Virus record (IMG/VR): IMGVR_UViG_3300022674_000053
Span: 1-21,623 of that record
Direction: 5' to 3' (one strand)
Source of the DNA: a virus
DNA: 21,623 nucleotides
In this document: positions 226 through 20,253 of the stretch, in pieces
Layout: each line of letters opens with the position of its first letter
Numbering within the stretch: the first letter of the stretch is position 1
Made by a program: the position numbers and the translations under genes
Notes under the pieces: generated by a model
What the model saw: the letters and a program-made list of their open reading frames with translations, nothing else
Database searches by the model: none
What the model was told of the DNA's origin: nothing

Positions 226-2400
226 GGTTTAGTAACACACGTTGGTTATTTTGATGGGGATGATGGTTCTACAATAAAAGCAGTTGGTATTTCATGTACA
301 AGAAATAGTGCTGGTTTTTATACTATTAGTTTTGACAGTACAAGAGGTTCAAATGATTATATAGTAACCGGACAAGTTATCGAGTCTAACTCAACAAAAG
401 ATGATGTAAAAATTCATGTTGTTGAGGGAAGTCAAACTGTAAATGACTTTGATGTTAATATATATGAAGGCGATAATGGTGGAACTCCAGATGTTAATGT
501 TGATAGAGATTTTTACATTATGATTTCTGATCCTGGTGATGATATTGTTATAAATGGAACTAGCGGAACATCAGGCACATCAGGAAATAGTGGAACTTCG
601 GGCAGCTCAGGTACCAGTGGCTCTTCTGGCACATCGGGATCGTCTGGTTCATCAGGTACCAGTGGCTCTTCTGGCACATCGGGATCTTCTGGTTCATCTG
701 GCACAAGTGGCATTTCGGGAACTAGCGGATCTTCTGGTTCATCTGGCACATCTGGAGTTGATGGAGATGATGGAACCTCAGGCACGAGTGGAACATCAGG
801 ATCAAGTGGCAGTAGTGGAACATCATCACTTCCAGAAGATTTGCCAGTATGTCAGACAAGAAGATCAACCAACCAAACATTAACAACAAGTTGGGCAGAT
901 ATAGTTTTTGATACAACAGATATTGAAAACGACGATACAGTATTAGAGCATAATACTACAAACACTCAACGTATTGATATTAAAGAAGATGGTTTATATA
1001 TGTTGTCATATGCTATTTCAGTAGATGCTGACGGTGGAGAAGATGAATTTCAATTCCGCATATATAAAAATGGAACAACTGTAATACCAGGTAGTTTAAG
1101 ATTGATCAGTGAAGATGATGAAGTTAACGATGCTGGCTCTGTTTGTTATGCTGAACTGGAAGATGGGGATTATGTAACATTCCAAGGTATTACAGATGGC
1201 GGAACAAATATAATAATTCCTGAAAGTGTATATTCTGTAATGAAAGCTCAAGGACCAAAGGGTGATACTGGCCCAACTGGTTCTGGTTCAAATATCAATG
1301 TTCAGGAAGAAGGAACTAATTTAGCAAATACACCTCACTCAACATTGAATTTTAAAGGGGCATCTGTTACAGCAACAGATCAAGGAAGTGGTGTTGCATC
1401 AATAGAAATTGATATTGGAGCTTCAGAATACTTTGATGGATATTATTCAGGCACTGCGGCAATTGGTACTGGCTGGACTGATATGCCAATTAATAATGAA
1501 AGAGAAAAGACATCAGCTTTTACACACACCTCCCCATCAGCGGAAGTTACAGTAGCTACAGCGGGTAAATATATTGTTCATTATAAAGTATCATCATTGG
1601 GCGGTGGTAGAAGTCAATCTGCATGTCGTCTTGTTTTAGATACAGGAACAGGATATGCTTTAGTTTCTGGTAGTACAGGACAGATGTATAATAGACAGAC
1701 AGATCATGGTGCTAGTGCTACATCTCCTATGATTCTTGATTTAGATGTTGGTGACAAACTAAAAGTTCAAGCTATAAAAACACAAGGCACTACAAATACA
1801 GTATTATTTGCTGCTGATTCAGAATTAGTTATTCATAGTGCTCCTGCAAAAGGTGCTAAAGGAGATACCGGACCAGCAGGTTCAGGAACAACTATTAATA
1901 TTCAAGAAGAAGGAAGTAATTTAGCAAATACGCCTCATTCAACATTAGATTTTAGAGGAGCATCTGTTACAGCAACAGATCAAGGAAGTGGTGTTGCAAG
2001 AGTAACTGTAACAGCAGGAGCTTCTACTTTTGGTTCACACTTTTCACAATCTGTTAGCGACGCAGAAAGTACCACAACAAGTACTACATTTCAAGAAAAA
2101 TTAACATTGCAGGTAAGTGGTTTAACAGCTGGAAAATATAGAGTCGGTTGGCATTGTGAGATGAACACGTCTACAATTGCAGATTTCATGTATATGCAAA
2201 TACAATTGGATAATACTACAACATTAGCTGCCCCGATTATAGAAGCAAAGGATACAGGTAATTATTATCCTTTTAGTGGTTTTGCATATGTTGATTTAAG
2301 TGCTTCTACTACATATGATTTTGATATGGATTATAGAAGTGAAAATGGAGACACAACAAGGATAAGACGAGCTAGATTAGAATTTTGGAGGGTAAGTTAA
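1..2400 (+). CDS. Collagen-repeat tail fibre/adhesin, 5' end outside window
   Basis: The reading frame is open from base 1, so the gene starts upstream; 799 residues are visible. Visible order: a Gly-Thr/Ser-Ser collagen-like tract (residues 1-76), a globular block (80-172), a second Gly-X-Y tract (182-275), a C1q/TNF-like beta block (about 280-415), a GPKGDTGPTG collagen triplet run with a linker (418-472), a second beta block (477-615), a second GAKGDTGPAG linker (617-672), and a C-terminal beta domain (677-799). The two linkers are paralogous copies exactly 600 bp apart. Gly-X-Y stalks alternating with jelly-roll-like heads are typical of trimeric phage fibres and receptor-binding proteins, so a role in host attachment at the tail is likely. 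The ATG at 520 lies inside the frame and is not the true start. Fibre-type architecture is clear; the receptor and exact position on the virion are unknown. Confidence 0.8.
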   Translation, partial: SGSSGSSGTSGSSGSSGSSGTGGTSGSSGSSGSSGSSGVSGTSGSSGTSGVDGNDGTSGSSGSSGSSGTSGADGNGLVTHVGYFDGDDGSTIKAVGISCTRNSAGFYTISFDSTRGSNDYIVTGQVIESNSTKDDVKIHVVEGSQTVNDFDVNIYEGDNGGTPDVNVDRDFYIMISDPGDDIVINGTSGTSGTSGNSGTSGSSGTSGSSGTSGSSGSSGTSGSSGTSGSSGSSGTSGISGTSGSSGSSGTSGVDGDDGTSGTSGTSGSSGSSGTSSLPEDLPVCQTRRSTNQTLTTSWADIVFDTTDIENDDTVLEHNTTNTQRIDIKEDGLYMLSYAISVDADGGEDEFQFRIYKNGTTVIPGSLRLISEDDEVNDAGSVCYAELEDGDYVTFQGITDGGTNIIIPESVYSVMKAQGPKGDTGPTGSGSNINVQEEGTNLANTPHSTLNFKGASVTATDQGSGVASIEIDIGASEYFDGYYSGTAAIGTGWTDMPINNEREKTSAFTHTSPSAEVTVATAGKYIVHYKVSSLGGGRSQSACRLVLDTGTGYALVSGSTGQMYNRQTDHGASATSPMILDLDVGDKLKVQAIKTQGTTNTVLFAADSELVIHSAPAKGAKGDTGPAGSGTTINIQEEGSNLANTPHSTLDFRGASVTATDQGSGVARVTVTAGASTFGSHFSQSVSDAESTTTSTTFQEKLTLQVSGLTAGKYRVGWHCEMNTSTIADFMYMQIQLDNTTTLAAPIIEAKDTGNYYPFSGFAYVDLSASTTYDFDMDYRSENGDTTRIRRARLEFWRVS
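544..830 (+). repeat. Gly-Ser/Thr collagen-like repeat tract 2
   Basis: About 94 codons of Gly-Thr-Ser and Gly-Ser-Ser triplets, with one Val-Asp-Gly-Asp-Asp-Gly interruption near 760. Longer near-identical DNA blocks recur inside it: the run around 618-660 (accagtggctcttctggcac and what follows) appears again about 42 bp later, consistent with unequal exchange or slippage. Confidence 0.8.
1255..1999 (+). repeat. Paralogous fibre module, copies at 1255-1399 and 1855-1999
   Basis: The segment encoding the KGDTGP triplets and the linker with QEEGTNLANTPHSTL recurs exactly 600 bp downstream with QEEGSNLANTPHSTL. The final ~39 bp of each copy (ending at 1399 and 1999) are identical or nearly so, while the middle has diverged mostly at silent sites. 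This indicates an in-frame 200-codon internal duplication, with the intervening beta domains having diverged more. Confidence 0.8.
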
Positions 2401-11598: not shown

Positions 11599-11616
11599 TT
11601 TAGAACAAATTACAAA
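11599..11616 (+). promoter_or_regulatory. Late-type promoter, extended motif copy 2
   Basis: TTTAGAACAAATTACAAA matches the other copies at the TTTAGAACAA block and has TACAAA in place of TATAAA. It lies 29 bp before the start at 11646. An in-frame ATG at 11616 lies inside the core and would be upstream of transcription start, which supports 11646 as the real start. Confidence 0.65.
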
Positions 11617-11645
11617 TGTTAAATTCATCGTTGGAGGTTTCATGT

Positions 11646-12560
11646 ATGTCGTATAAATCAGAGATACTTAAGTTAGCGGAAACAACCGCGCTCACGAACA
11701 AAGAGATTGCAAAGATTGTTGGTTGTTCTCCGAAAACTGTTACTCGGTATGCAGGTTCATTTGTATCACGATCACAAAGCAAAGCACAACTAGACGAATC
11801 CTCATGGGAGATTCAAAAAACTGTTTTACTTCCAGATATTCATTATCCACATTATGAAGAAAGGGTAATGAATGCTATTAATGAATTTATTTGGGATTAT
11901 GAACCAGATGAATTGTGTTATATGGGAGATCAAGTATCTTTAGATTGTATTTCAGGTTGGAATAAAAGAAAACCCTTATTAAAAGAAGGGCAAAGATTAT
12001 TAGAAGATTATGATGGTTTCGATTATCATGTATTAAAAACTCACGAAGAATATACTAAAGAAGATTGTCGAAGAACATTCATGATTGGTAATCATGAACA
12101 AAGAGTTAAATGGTACTGTGAAGAACATCCTGAACTTGAAGGAATGATCGATCTTGACAGACATTTACAACTTCAAGAACGTGGTTACAGAATTATTGAT
12201 TTCAATGAGATTCACAAAATTGGAAAGCTTAATGTTATTCATGGTTTCTATTGGAATAAATATCACGCTGCAAAAACACTAGATGCATTTGAAGGAAATG
12301 TTGCATATGCACATGTTCATAATCCTCAAATGTATGCAAAAGTTTCCCCAGTTGACCAAAAAGGTTATCACACCGCAACATCACTTCCTTGTATTTGTAA
12401 TATCAAACCAGACTATAAAAAGAACGCTCCAAACTTTTGGATTAATGGTTTTGGTATTGTTGAACATTTACCAGCTACAGGTTTCTTTAATTTATATACC
12501 ATTATTATCATTGAAGGTTCTTTTATGTATAATGGAAAGTATTACGGAAAAGATATCTAA
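11646..12560 (+). CDS. HTH-metallophosphoesterase protein (304 aa)
   Basis: Residues 14-36 (LTNKEIAKIVGCSPKTVTRY) form a helix-turn-helix of the terminase-small or resolvase type. Residues 58-230 carry calcineurin-like metallophosphoesterase motifs in order: D64-x-H66 (LLPDIHYP), G94-D95 (MGDQ), G148-N149-H150-E151 (IGNHEQR), H199 (IHGFYW) and H223-x-H225 (AHVHNPQ). These bind two metals and cleave phosphomonoesters or diesters, including nucleic acids in Mre11/SbcD-type members. The HTH suggests DNA-guided action, for example a repair, packaging or anti-host nuclease, but the substrate is unknown. GGAGG at 11632-11636 fits ATG 11646. It is a single-gene unit with its own late-type promoter. 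It converges on a leftward unit that ends at the terminator at 12563-12610. Confidence 0.85.
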   Translation: MSYKSEILKLAETTALTNKEIAKIVGCSPKTVTRYAGSFVSRSQSKAQLDESSWEIQKTVLLPDIHYPHYEERVMNAINEFIWDYEPDELCYMGDQVSLDCISGWNKRKPLLKEGQRLLEDYDGFDYHVLKTHEEYTKEDCRRTFMIGNHEQRVKWYCEEHPELEGMIDLDRHLQLQERGYRIIDFNEIHKIGKLNVIHGFYWNKYHAAKTLDAFEGNVAYAHVHNPQMYAKVSPVDQKGYHTATSLPCICNIKPDYKKNAPNFWINGFGIVEHLPATGFFNLYTIIIIEGSFMYNGKYYGKDI

Positions 12561-12562
12561 GC

Positions 12563-12610
12563 AAAAAAATCAGGGGGGAGGACGAGGCCGTGTCCAACTT
12601 CCCCCCTGAT
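12563..12610 (-). terminator. Strong minus-strand rho-independent terminator
   Basis: Read leftward, an 11-12-bp stem (ATCAGGGGGGA paired with TTCCCCCCTGAT) encloses a loop with its own GGAC/GTCC pairing, and the stem runs directly into seven T residues and GC. On the plus strand the A-tract lies before the stem and no T-run follows, so efficient termination is expected only leftward. Confidence 0.8.
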
Positions 12611-12790
12611 CGTGAGCGGTATGCTTCCACCTTTGCCGCACATACTCTAATTCGGGATGGCATTAACCCAATCAGGACTCACATAAGTAATTTGGTAGGG
12701 GTCATCACTATCGGGATAGAGGTCGAGGATGACCGCCCCGAAAACTCCCACCGACATGTGCCTACCAAAAACTATTCCACCGGACCTTGA
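12571..12790. other. GC-rich, inverted-repeat island at end of minus unit
   Basis: By my count about 52% G+C over 180 bp, clearly above the flanking AT-rich genes. Nested inverted repeats: TTTGGTAGG (12691-12699) with CCTACCAAA (12761-12769); GGTCATC (12700-12706) with GATGACC (12728-12734); CTAT/ATAG around CGGG (12708-12719); GTGAG (12612-12616) with CTCAC (12679-12683). It could fold as a multi-branched RNA on either strand; a leftward transcript ending at the terminator is more likely. It overlaps the possible 36-codon gene. Confidence 0.45.
12647..12757 (-). CDS. Possible small phage protein (36 aa) with SPDWV motif
   Basis: An ATG at 12757 opens a 36-codon frame ending in TAG at 12647. 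The product (MSVGVFGAVILDLYPDSDDP, then a YVSPDWVNAIPN tail) reads like the end of small SH3-like phage proteins that finish with a Val-Ser-Pro-Asp-Trp-Val strand. This is recollection of a family shape, not a database match. It starts 14 bp downstream of the 89-residue zinc-knuckle gene on the same strand and lies before the terminator. The start signal is weak: GGTAGG only 3 bp from ATG, inside a 9-bp stem. After the amber codon the same frame stays open for another 30 codons. A plus-strand GTG frame covers the same DNA, so strand is not certain. Confidence 0.45.
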   Translation of the reverse strand: MSVGVFGAVILDLYPDSDDPYQITYVSPDWVNAIPN

Positions 12791-13041
12791 AGATCACATC
12801 TGCAAGTAGGATTTCTACATATAAAACCTTTATTCGGCCTCGGTGAACGAAAACACGTTTCACTATTGATGTCCCAACCACAGTTCCAACAGTGATTGAT
12901 GTACGGTTTCTGCTCCGGTGCCAATTCTTCATGACCACACAAACATTCCCATTCACCCGGAAAAATTTCAAAAGGAACACAATTACAATCCGGGCATTCA
13001 TAAACTGGGGATGAAGCGTCATTCGATTTAAACAAATCCAT
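12772..13041 (-). CDS. Cys-rich zinc-knuckle protein (89 aa)
   Basis: Cys pairs occur at C16/C19 (ECPDCNC), C33/C35 (ECLCG), C51/C54 (CWNCGW) and C75/C80/C82 (CRNPTCRC). They are spaced like one or two rubredoxin-like or zinc-ribbon knuckles. There is no catalytic motif. Such short proteins can bind nucleic acid or act as transcription or host-takeover adaptors, but no target is visible. AAAGGAGA lies 7 bp before the start on the minus strand. It is second in the leftward unit, 12 bp after the 80-residue Cys-rich gene. A longer overlapping frame on the same strand (13022-12762) is out of phase and lacks a site. Confidence 0.7.
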   Translation of the reverse strand: MDLFKSNDASSPVYECPDCNCVPFEIFPGEWECLCGHEELAPEQKPYINHCWNCGWDINSETCFRSPRPNKGFICRNPTCRCDLQGPVE

Positions 13042-13053
13042 GTTAATCTCCTT

Positions 13054-13296
13054 TCAATAAAGTGAGTATCTCTTTCGGCGCATTAGTTTTTCTTTTCTCG
13101 CCTTCTTTATATATAAACGTATTTCATCACAAGATGCATCATCACAAGTCATCTTGATCAAACACGTTGAACATGGACATGGGTGACCATTTATTTTATG
13201 TGGCATTCCACACATGAACTTTTCATCGATAAACTGAAAAGTACAACACCCAGTACATATATCCTTTCTGATTTCTTTGACTTTTTTTATATTCAT
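13054..13296 (-). CDS. Small Cys-rich protein (80 aa)
   Basis: Nine Cys in 80 residues: C14/C17/C18 (CTGCC), C29, C40/C42/C45 (CPCSTC), C51 and C56. The central HPCPCSTCLIKMTCDDASC block looks like a metal-binding knuckle seen in small proteins of large phages. The C-terminus (KKARKEKLMRRKRYSLY) is strongly basic and may bind nucleic acid. It is the first gene of the leftward unit, preceded by GGAGA and by the shared 14-bp element at 13334-13347. The function is unknown. Confidence 0.7.
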   Translation of the reverse strand: MNIKKVKEIRKDICTGCCTFQFIDEKFMCGMPHKINGHPCPCSTCLIKMTCDDASCDEIRLYIKKARKEKLMRRKRYSLY

Positions 13297-13333
13297 AGTT
13301 CTCCAAAAGGTTAATGGTTTAGTTCTTTCATTG

Positions 13334-13347
13334 ATTTATATATATAG
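13334..13347 (-). promoter_or_regulatory. Shared minus-strand promoter element, copy 1
   Basis: On the minus strand this reads CTATATATATAAAT, identical over 14 bp to the element at 20224-20237. Both stand about 40 bp before the first start codon of a leftward unit (37 and 41 bp). A TTGTAT at a spacing of about 16 bp is visible here as a possible -35, so sigma70-like (early or middle) use is possible. Confidence 0.5.
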
Positions 13348-17852: not shown

Positions 17853-18380
17853 CTAATGTTTATTAATGGTTATATGAGGCAGGCTATTAAATGTTCCACC
17901 ATGTTCCATTTCACCCATGAACTCACCGTCTTCATCTGCATAATGAAAAAGATATAAATACTTGTTTTCATTTTCTTTTATAAATTTCTCGGCTTGTTCG
18001 ATTCCAGCTTTATGACATAAGGCATTATATTCTTTATAAAACGCTTTCATCCATTGTCTGTTTTCATACAACTCATTGGTTGAAATGCCTTCACGTTCAC
18101 AAAAGGTATTTTGATATGTACCATAATCAAGGTGTCTATAACCAGGGCAAAATGATATATACCCATGATTTAATTGTTCAGTTATAAAAGTAACCAACGC
18201 CTTTACACCGGTTTTGATTTTCTTTGGTTTTTGCTTTTTACAATCTTTTAATACTTGAAGTGCTTTGCGGTCACCAAGAATTAAAAACTCAACGTCTTCG
18301 TGTGTTTTGACGATTTTATCAAACGCCACGATGAATGAGGAAGAGCTTGAATTTGTTACAAAATCTGATTTGATTTTCAT
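17853..18380 (-). CDS. Tagged protein B: MKIKSDFVTNSSSSSF N-terminus (175 aa)
   Basis: The first 16 residues, MKIKSDFVTNSSSSSF, are identical to those of the gene just upstream (18715-18380); the rest is unrelated. The remainder is mixed: a Lys-rich stretch (QKPKKIKTGVK, about 52-62), an aromatic segment GYISFCPGYRHLDYGTYQ (about 72-90) and a long Glu/Lys helix leading into an acidic end. It has no signal peptide or catalytic motif. Its ATG overlaps the previous stop in TAATG, a coupled arrangement. The Ser-rich start is a recurring motif I have seen in uncharacterised bacterial and phage proteins; I know of no demonstrated function. The radical SAM enzyme two genes upstream makes modification of this end a hypothesis. 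Confidence 0.75.
   Translation of the reverse strand: MKIKSDFVTNSSSSSFIVAFDKIVKTHEDVEFLILGDRKALQVLKDCKKQKPKKIKTGVKALVTFITEQLNHGYISFCPGYRHLDYGTYQNTFCEREGISTNELYENRQWMKAFYKEYNALCHKAGIEQAEKFIKENENKYLYLFHYADEDGEFMGEMEHGGTFNSLPHITINKH
18329..18380 (-). repeat. Ser-rich tag coding repeat, copy B (partner at 18664-18715)
   Basis: The first ~52 bp of this gene match those of the gene at 18715 with about four substitutions, nearly all silent, and the genes diverge sharply after codon 17. Confidence 0.8.
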
Positions 18381-18715
18381 TAATTATCCATCCATGCTTC
18401 TTCGATGTGATGTGGAGGTTTATCGATGTTGAATATTCTTTTGATTTCTGCATGAACCCTTTTCTTTAAATCTCCAAGGGTTTCATCATCTTTCATTTTA
18501 TCAAATTCAACACCAACCATTATATTATAAGCGTCCCATGAACCACCTGGTCCAAAAGAGAATGTAAGGAATGAATCTTCTAATAATTCATCAATATAGT
18601 CGTATCTATCATCGGCATCATCGGGAATGTTTATATCATCAAATTCTATATATCTTCCAATGGCGACGAACGAGGATGAGCTTGAATTTGTTACAAAATC
18701 TGATTTAATTTTCAT
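18380..18715 (-). CDS. Tagged protein A: MKIKSDFVTNSSSSSF N-terminus (111 aa)
   Basis: It shares its first 16 residues with tagged protein B, then continues with an acidic region (YIEFDDINIPDDADDRYDYI, about 21-41), a hydrophobic/Gly segment LTFSFGPGGSWDAYNIMVGV (about 50-70) and a helical end KRVHAEIKRIFNIDKPPHHI (about 84-103). No catalytic motif is visible. The beta-rich region with Asp-Ala-Tyr-Asn could be a small fold of its own. It begins 1 bp after the radical SAM stop and overlaps the next gene by 1 bp, so rSAM, A and B should be made in concert. It is too large for a classic RiPP precursor, but the shared start could act as a recognition leader for an enzyme. Confidence 0.75.
   Translation of the reverse strand: MKIKSDFVTNSSSSSFVAIGRYIEFDDINIPDDADDRYDYIDELLEDSFLTFSFGPGGSWDAYNIMVGVEFDKMKDDETLGDLKKRVHAEIKRIFNIDKPPHHIEEAWMDN
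18664..18715 (-). repeat. Ser-rich tag coding repeat, copy A (partner at 18329-18380)
   Basis: Near-identical to the start of tagged protein B over about 52 bp: ATGAAAATYAAATCAGATTT, then GTAACAAATTCAAGCTC. The sharp end at codon 17 suggests module exchange or recent conversion of this segment only. Confidence 0.8.
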
Positions 18716-18716
18716 G

Positions 18717-19745
18717 TTAAAATCCTATCGGGCAACAGTTGGGATTGTTTTGCAACCTGTTGCGAAATTCATTAAATTGGAATGCTGTATTCCAAATTGC
18801 ATGTATGTCATGATGTTTTAATATCTTAACACCACTTTTATCATGATCCGCAAAACTACATGGAATTAGTTGCATTGACGGACTTATATATACCGACATC
18901 CTTGATGACTCACATGTATCAACTGCCATTTTTTGTATCTCATTTGGTTTAGCGTATTGTAGTACATGATTTAAAAAACAACTATCCATACCAATTTTAA
19001 ATTTAGCTTTTGGTGTAAATACAACCTCGGAAAAACTTTTAAGTTGCCCTGTTGTTGGGATCAACTCTACTTTATCTTTTCCAGACCCTTGAGGTTTGAA
19101 CAAAAGAAAAACAACTGCGTTTAAACTTTCCAAATCTACTTTACCAGCCCATACATCAGTGCCGTTTACAATATCAAGGCATTTAGAAAAACTACTACGA
19201 TTGAATATCAAATGAATATTGGTCTTTAATCCAGCCTTCATTAATCGGTTAAGGGCATTAAATGTAAAATCACGACCATAATCACTTACAGCTACGGCAC
19301 CACATAGTTTGGATATTTCGATTTGTTCATCTGTTAAATTTCGTCCACTAGTTGTATAGTTTGGGACAACATTATTCATACGGGCATATTCCAAAATCTC
19401 TTTGAAATTAGGATGTAGATTTGGATCTCCACGCCCACCTAATGCAACTTGATTTGTATGATGTTTGACCTGATCAATAATAATTTTAAAGTTTTCAAGA
19501 GTCATGTGGGGTTCATATTTATTTCCCTGATAACAGAATGAACAAGAGTTCAAACAATGGCCCATGATACCAACATCAACTAATAAAGGAAGTTCTGTTT
19601 GAAAAGGGTCGTGCCCATTCTTTCCCTGAAGGACTTCAAAGCCATTTTTTGTATTGAAGCAAACGACATATTCATCGTTTTCAAATCGTTTGTCAAATAC
19701 ACCTTTAACAACCTTATTACCTTCTACAAAAATTTCTGTAAACAT
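18717..19745 (-). CDS. Radical SAM enzyme with SPASM-type C-terminus (342 aa)
   Basis: The radical SAM CX3CX2C cluster motif is at C64-C68-C71 (GHCLNSCSFCYQG), followed by GGRGDPNLHPNF (103-114) in the SAM-binding GGEP position. A C-terminal set of cysteines, C256, C278, C296 (SPSMQLIPCSFAD) and C337-C338, has the look of a SPASM auxiliary-cluster domain. SPASM enzymes are commonly peptide or protein maturases (for example sulfatase-maturing or RiPP-modifying types). They use SAM-derived radicals and need reduced, largely oxygen-free conditions. AAGGAGACAT precedes the start. It lies 8 bp after the membrane protein gene and 1 bp before tagged protein A, so the substrate is probably encoded nearby. 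The exact reaction cannot be deduced. Confidence 0.88.
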   Translation of the reverse strand: MFTEIFVEGNKVVKGVFDKRFENDEYVVCFNTKNGFEVLQGKNGHDPFQTELPLLVDVGIMGHCLNSCSFCYQGNKYEPHMTLENFKIIIDQVKHHTNQVALGGRGDPNLHPNFKEILEYARMNNVVPNYTTSGRNLTDEQIEISKLCGAVAVSDYGRDFTFNALNRLMKAGLKTNIHLIFNRSSFSKCLDIVNGTDVWAGKVDLESLNAVVFLLFKPQGSGKDKVELIPTTGQLKSFSEVVFTPKAKFKIGMDSCFLNHVLQYAKPNEIQKMAVDTCESSRMSVYISPSMQLIPCSFADHDKSGVKILKHHDIHAIWNTAFQFNEFRNRLQNNPNCCPIGF

Positions 19746-20216: not shown

Positions 20217-20253
20217 ATTAGTAATTTATATATATAGGGATTTTATTACTAAT
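20217..20253. repeat. 9-bp inverted repeat around the minus-strand element
   Basis: ATTAGTAAT (20217-20225) and ATTACTAAT (20245-20253) are exact reverse complements separated by 19 bp. The pair brackets the element at 20224-20237. It could be an operator or an RNA stem in a leftward leader. Confidence 0.4.
20224..20237 (-). promoter_or_regulatory. Shared minus-strand promoter element, copy 2
   Basis: Identical to 13334-13347 over 14 bp (CTATATATATAAAT on the minus strand), standing 41 bp before ATG 20182. No clear -35 is seen at the usual spacing. Confidence 0.5.

Follow-up and report, generated by a model that had tools for sequence, protein, structure and literature searches.

The stable RNAs C and D of phage T4 are small, phage-encoded molecules of unknown role that lie in a tRNA gene cluster, and the role of structured RNAs beside phage tRNAs has been an open question since then. 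In type III toxin-antitoxin systems, a ToxI-like pseudoknot RNA lies beside the gene for a ToxN-type endoribonuclease. Rfam holds twister families. Twister is described, in the available parts of PMC5408937, as a hairpin of P1, L1, P2, L2, P4 and L4, with a pseudoknot T1 joining L4 to L1. In the available parts of PMC6299227, xrRNA-D, an element of plant viruses, begins with the initial nucleotide of its P1 and ends with the final one of its pseudoknot; its L1 and L2B are more than 97% conserved and its stems covary. Besides these, comparative genomics has yielded the structured RNA candidates manA, wcaG (cyanophages) and the L17 downstream element (PMC2864571, in part). We found no description of the RNA reported here, element A, in the accessible text of PMC6299227, PMC5408937 or PMC2864571, or in the other literature looked through.

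The leftward unit and its GC-rich island

The window, that is the whole stretch of DNA analysed, is a viral record of 21,623 bases whose tail sheath gene is related to jumbo-myophage sheath genes. Its positions 12571-12790 contain 53.6% G+C, as opposed to 35.2% for the whole window, in good agreement with the GC-rich island of about 52% noted in the sequence-only reading of this DNA. Among 21,404 segments of 220 nt, 12 are equally GC-rich, and the others lie near position 600. The features around the island are as follows.

11616-12560, plus strand: phosphoesterase gene, the syntenic anchor (PHROG 221 metallo-phosphoesterase, E 1.9e-24)
13328-13347, minus strand: leftward promoter-like motif CTATATATATWAATNANTGA (0.04 sites expected at two or fewer mismatches)
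13054-13296, minus strand: cysteine-rich ORF of 80 aa in the leftward unit (from the ORF list)
12772-13041, minus strand: cysteine-rich ORF of 89 aa, zinc-ribbon-like by eye, its stop 2 nt before element A
12691-12769, minus strand: element A, 79-nt pseudoknotted structured RNA (covariance model R2, 91.7 bits, the window being a seed)
12609-12687, minus strand: element B, second structured RNA family (model R3, 92.2 bits, seed)
12563-12610, minus strand: intrinsic terminator (11-bp stem 12569-12579/12600-12610, 20-nt loop, U-run 12563-12569)

The leftward unit runs from the motif (13347-13328) through the 80-aa and 89-aa ORFs to the terminator (12610-12563), and the island is the span from the last stop codon (12772) to the end of that terminator. 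The strong terminator seen earlier was recovered with its 11-bp stem and U-run; an automated scan limited to loops of 3-8 nt did not list it, its loop being 20 nt long. The idea that the island is a structured RNA held as to structure, but two such elements, A and B, follow the last ORF, and the terminator after them also belongs to the island. Across 58 sources the motif CTATATATATWAATNANTGA has 46 minus-strand sites and 0 on the plus strand. Neither the 80-aa nor the 89-aa ORF matched Pfam or PHROG, and the latter was dropped as an anchor for finding relatives when it returned zero. In the searched phage records, all relatives of the phosphoesterase are below 60% identity, and a DNA-level search with the window gave zero matches.

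Known RNA families were searched as well. Rfam 15 at gathering thresholds gave 0 matches in the window, and in 14 loci from the initial 21 it gave two tRNAs and no other family. In E-value mode (window, L047 and L026) only sub-threshold matches appeared, the best being a snoRNA (E 0.004, 21.6 bits where the threshold is 40). A fluoride riboswitch was considered and rejected, its match being partial and far below threshold (13 bits, E 0.4). ARAGORN called no tRNA or tmRNA in the window and none at element A in L023-L079, and no ToxN-type Pfam match was found among the 10 window proteins scanned.

Predicted fold of element A

Element A comprises three helices and a pseudoknot. In the list below, cell percentages and double changes refer to the window-type alignment.

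12761-12769, minus strand: 5' strand of P1, pairing with 12691-12699 (9 pairs, 94.6% of cells paired, double changes in 9 of 9, n=17)
12691-12699, minus strand: 3' strand of P1 (exact 9-bp complement, covariation)
12751-12760, minus strand: 5' strand of P2 with a bulged A at 12757 (9 pairs, 92.2% of cells paired, 5 double-changed)
12706-12714, minus strand: 3' strand of P2 (covariation)
12736-12741, minus strand: 5' strand of P3 (6 pairs, 89.0% of cells paired, 4 double-changed)
12723-12728, minus strand: 3' strand of P3 (covariation)
12729-12734, minus strand: apical loop of P3, one strand of the pseudoknot (6 pairs, paired in 94.1% of cells, 4 double-changed)
12700-12705, minus strand: pseudoknot strand between P2 and P1 (covariation and fold)

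Folded alone, 12769-12691 forms P1, P2 and P3 at -31.4 kcal/mol (z -2.62, none of 200 shuffles as good), and the whole strand of 228 nt also folds more stably than its shuffled versions (z -2.37, with 3 of 200 equally good). The pseudoknot-free minimum-energy fold leaves both the P3 loop and 12705-12700 unpaired, and six bases of the former are complementary to the latter (GGUCAU/AUGACC). The alignments show element A, at the level of sequence, as a stacked P1-P2-P3 hairpin whose P3 loop would pair back to the spacer between P2 and P1, with P1 closing a compact core.

This fold replaces the nested arrangement first proposed for the repeats. The 9-bp inverted repeat is exact (12691-12699/12761-12769) and corresponds to P1. 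The 7-bp repeat GGTCATC/GATGACC also exists (12700-12706/12728-12734), but its pairing is the pseudoknot, so the repeats do not nest in order. The small inner repeat CTATCGGGATAG is present at 12708-12719; as a hairpin of the fold it shows no covariation (0.154 against 0.170 in shuffles), is not conserved in relatives and was rejected. Accordingly, the kind of molecule suggested earlier, a structured RNA, stood on covariation, synteny and stand-alone units, and the topology did not.

Covariation in relatives

Relatives were collected through the phosphoesterase, giving 21 contigs and then 57 (including some of the 21) with a 16-protein alignment. Their copies of element A fall into a window type and a second sequence type, and in relatives of both the fold is kept while the letters differ. 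Covariation analysis of homologous regions, proposed earlier as a check, found all helices covarying. In the window type (n=17, a misaligned row, L041, being kept in the counts), 92.6% of 502 cells are standard pairs and 22 of the 30 pairs show double changes; the covariation score is 0.590, compared with 0.260 in shuffles and no more than 0.190 when partners are slid. The second type (n=16) gives 92.1% of 407 cells paired and double changes in 17 of 26 pairs; it scores 0.531, compared with 0.278 in shuffles and no more than 0.140 with slid partners. Taken alone, the window-type pseudoknot (94.1% paired) scores 0.418 against 0.239, and P2 with P3 scores 0.576 against 0.274. In the second type the pseudoknot is paired in all cells. 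Shuffle counts are not to be read as probabilities, because the aligned phages are related.

The pseudoknot was included in neither covariance model, R1 being built on the second type and R2 on the window type. R1, made without the window copy, scores element A in the window at 23.5 bits (E 0.011). A pseudoknot descriptor script, which harvested copies, missed the window copy, by our reading because of the bulged A, and returned many chance matches; no count is therefore based on it. Taken together, element A is almost certainly a selected structured RNA, and what is under selection appears, from the pattern of change, to be the fold and not the sequence.

Comparison with described RNAs

Element A resembles twister in strand order and in that its apical loop pairs with the first internal loop, a likeness of topology only (PMC5408937, in part), and a self-cleaving ribozyme could be imagined on this ground. 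The P1-P2 junction, however, measures 0-1 nt in element A, where the available description of twister places the scissile U-A. Twister L1 and L4 are strongly conserved in the same description, unlike the loop bases of element A, which are not invariant and vary freely as covarying pairs of the pseudoknot; this pseudoknot has 6 bp compared with the 3-bp T1. Together with the lack of an Rfam match, these differences make catalysis by element A very improbable.

An exonuclease-resistant element comparable to xrRNA-D would act through a pseudoknot ring that stops a 5'-to-3' exonuclease and leaves a stable 3' fragment. As far as the accessible text of PMC6299227 goes, the order of stem, loop, stem and 3'-flank pseudoknot is comparable: both have two covarying stems, little conserved in sequence, and a pseudoknot with sequence 3' of the hairpin. 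On the other hand, element A has an extra helix P1 enclosing the knot, so that its P2 corresponds to P1 of xrRNA-D; its internal- and apical-loop columns vary, and equivalents of the more than 97% conserved L1 and L2B are lacking. Moreover, it occurs in a DNA phage, downstream of genes and with a terminator adjoining. Such a function is considered unlikely, and on the features tested element A appears, by sequence and predicted structure, to be a member of neither twister nor xrRNA-D.

Other likenesses are looser. As a phage small RNA beside tRNAs, element A recalls the T4 RNAs C and D by description. It shares covariation with manA, wcaG and the L17 downstream element, some of which are in phages and one in a 3' UTR; manA and wcaG, as far as the source describes them, are mostly in 5' UTRs, whereas element A is downstream of ORFs or alone.

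Coding potential

The same bases had also been suggested to encode a small protein, and a translated ORF (36 aa in the window) with pairing by chance would account for the island otherwise. Its frame is open in several close relatives of the window. In the set as a whole, 10 of the 49 copies of element A have no open frame at all (mononucleotide-shuffle expectation, 22.6%), in-frame stops occur in two relatives (L042 and L048) and a 2-nt insertion in L040 and L048. Codon-position entropies of the window frame are 0.676/0.869/0.869 bits in 12 of the 17 window-type sequences, with L041, L040, L048, L055 and L032 left out because they are misaligned or differ in length; third positions show no excess, and the pattern is not that of a protein. 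Homologues that keep the frame and lose the pairings had been named as refuting a structured RNA, and the reverse was found: pairings are kept, with strong compensatory change, and the reading frame is not conserved. The small ORF in this frame (12647-12757) was rejected on these grounds. Translation by chance overlap with the pairing is therefore hardly credible as an explanation; as the window frame stays open in those close relatives, we call a window peptide simply unlikely.

Distribution of element A

Searching the window and the 57 contigs at E up to 1, R1 matched 35 places and R2 32, and their union gives 49 copies (44 distinct) in 47 of the 58 sources. Of these copies, 33 are model seeds; the models turned up the other 16, which include near-duplicates of seeds. 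Relative to the phosphoesterase, all 49 are on the opposite strand and past the gene's 3' end, with inserted genes intervening in some loci, and all are richer in G+C than their loci (mean 56% against 34.4%). L053, L072 and L155 have two copies each, and the weakest copies, in L073 and L062, are shortened. Two contigs from outside the set also carry element A: L155 (R2 86.1 bits, a second copy by R1) and L149, with a sole copy in its 223-kb record. Among 20 records searched whole, each record with a match has it in one place only. A 15-mer pattern scan returned 51 stretches, four of which (L082, L094, L108 and L119) lie on contigs already in the set; the remaining 47 viral loci (455,250 bases), used as a negative control, gave zero element A matches.

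By both models, element A is absent from 11 of the 58 sources (L027, L030, L036, L037, L058, L065, L066, L067, L068, L074 and L079), indicating that it is dispensable. The leftward motif has a core that reads TATATATAG on the plus strand, and this core is present in 35 of 35 A-bearing loci with a delimitable intergenic region, compared with 4 of 9 A-less loci; L066 and L067 have no leftward unit and no TATATATAG there.

Two observations on individual loci may be added. The L155 locus lies on a contig in a Thermoplasmata-labelled MAG bin; a mis-binned phage contig is as likely, and no host is claimed. Past the phosphoesterase stop, L030, L033, L037, L061, L070, L074 and L075 carry extra plus-strand ORFs with a cysteine-rich start, which by eye look like free-standing homing endonucleases in element A's slot.

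Elements B and C

The GTGAG/CTCAC pair noted earlier (12612-12616/12678-12682) is present and forms P1 of element B. Six copies of this element were aligned (window, L052, two in L053, L072 and L074). Double changes occur in 5 of 16 pairs, the score being 0.388 against 0.121; in its P3 (12641-12645/12619-12623), 4 of 5 pairs are double-changed. As the sample is small, element B is a good candidate only. L149 has an element B with the same score and sequence context as that of L052, and L042 and L075 give weak matches. A loop-to-strand pseudoknot, GCGG/CCGC, looked possible but is not claimed, its bases overlapping two helices.

The third element, C (TTAGNCAACGTC...GAAACGCTCTGNAAACC), is small and conserved; it has the terminator on one side and, on the other, either a cloverleaf RNA or element A. 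Its sites are L050 2253-2308, L054 3983-4039, and 4005-4022 in L038 and L071.

Surroundings and proposed role of element A

The 3'-side context of the 49 copies was sorted by eye. In 25 of them a U-run follows within 5 nt of P1, so that P1 itself would be the terminator stem; the window copy is not among these, its terminator being the separate hairpin at 12569-12610. A separate hairpin terminator directly follows element A in nine copies. In nine others (L023, L024, L032, L038, L049, L050, L057, L071 and L072) a cloverleaf RNA begins 0-2 nt past P1. Three copies (L052, L053 and the window) are followed by element B, one by another element A and two by neither. Cloverleaf folds were computed for eight of the nine and for L155, L071 sharing a tRNA call with L038, and ARAGORN calls six of the nine. 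On the other side, most loci have element A a few to about 150 nt past an ORF. In L029 and L031 it stands alone: the motif is followed by 27 nt, element A and a hairpin terminator, and frames that begin between motif and element reach at most 29 codons (27 from ATG). L031 also has a 40-codon TTG frame that starts within element A and runs through the terminator.

These arrangements bear on two readings. Element A may be a module acting in cis at the 3' end of the leftward unit, an elaborate terminator and mRNA cap in which P1 is the terminator stem and the knotted top speeds P1 closure, blocks 3'-to-5' exonucleases and stabilises the upstream mRNA. The frequency of U-runs at P1 agrees with this, and so does the position of element A, which is usually just 3' of an ORF and always downstream on the leftward strand. 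However, the copies followed by a separate terminator, a cloverleaf or element B fit it poorly, and L029 and L031 offer no frame above 29 codons to protect. An ordinary hairpin would also do, and four covarying helices are left unexplained. A cis role is the less likely of the two, but it is a serious rival.

Covariation, synteny and the stand-alone units, all drawn from sequence comparison, strongly support a structured RNA, be it a small RNA or a stable product from the 3' end of the leftward transcript. We lean slightly towards one that acts in trans and is matured from the 3' end of the short leftward unit. The 3' end of this unit would yield element A as a free and stable RNA of about 80 nt, whose own 3' end would be set either by its terminator (P1 and the U-run) or by an RNase P cut at the 5' end of an abutting tRNA-like RNA. 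The free RNA would then act in trans as a protein-binding molecule recognised by its structure. Since the loops are poorly conserved and the helices are kept, recognition of shape by a protein partner is favoured over antisense pairing.

On a wider and more tentative view, elements A, B and C and the degenerate tRNA-like cloverleaves could form an exchangeable cassette of structure-selected phage small RNAs, occupying one promoter-driven slot in a jumbo-phage lineage, matured like tRNAs and acting in trans on a protein of the host or the phage. If so, they would represent phage RNA effectors of a new class, twister-like in fold but without catalysis. Element A gives an RNA family with a covariation-supported pseudoknot in phages for which the phage records searched contain no relative at the DNA level, and the locus offers a single slot whose contents, be they ORFs, tRNAs, tRNA-like RNAs or structured RNAs, are swapped between phages. 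A 79-nt unit that can be mutated in compensating pairs would also provide a handle on the role of structured RNAs beside phage tRNAs.

Some minor observations concern the cloverleaves and the rest of the window. The cloverleaf-forming RNAs at element A in L023, L049, L057 and L155 are not called by ARAGORN, and in some of the uncalled ones the anticodon loop or T loop looks unusual by eye. The window's other GC-rich spot is a long Gly-Thr-Ser/Gly-Ser-Ser triplet repeat in an ORF (520-2400, plus strand). A second window site of CTATATATATWAATNANTGA lies at 20218-20237 on the minus strand, just upstream of a leftward ORF (20197-19754), and two adjacent leftward ORFs at 17853-18715 (minus strand) have a common N-terminus, MKIKSDFVTNSSSSSF, and are adjoined by a radical SAM protein at 18717-19745.
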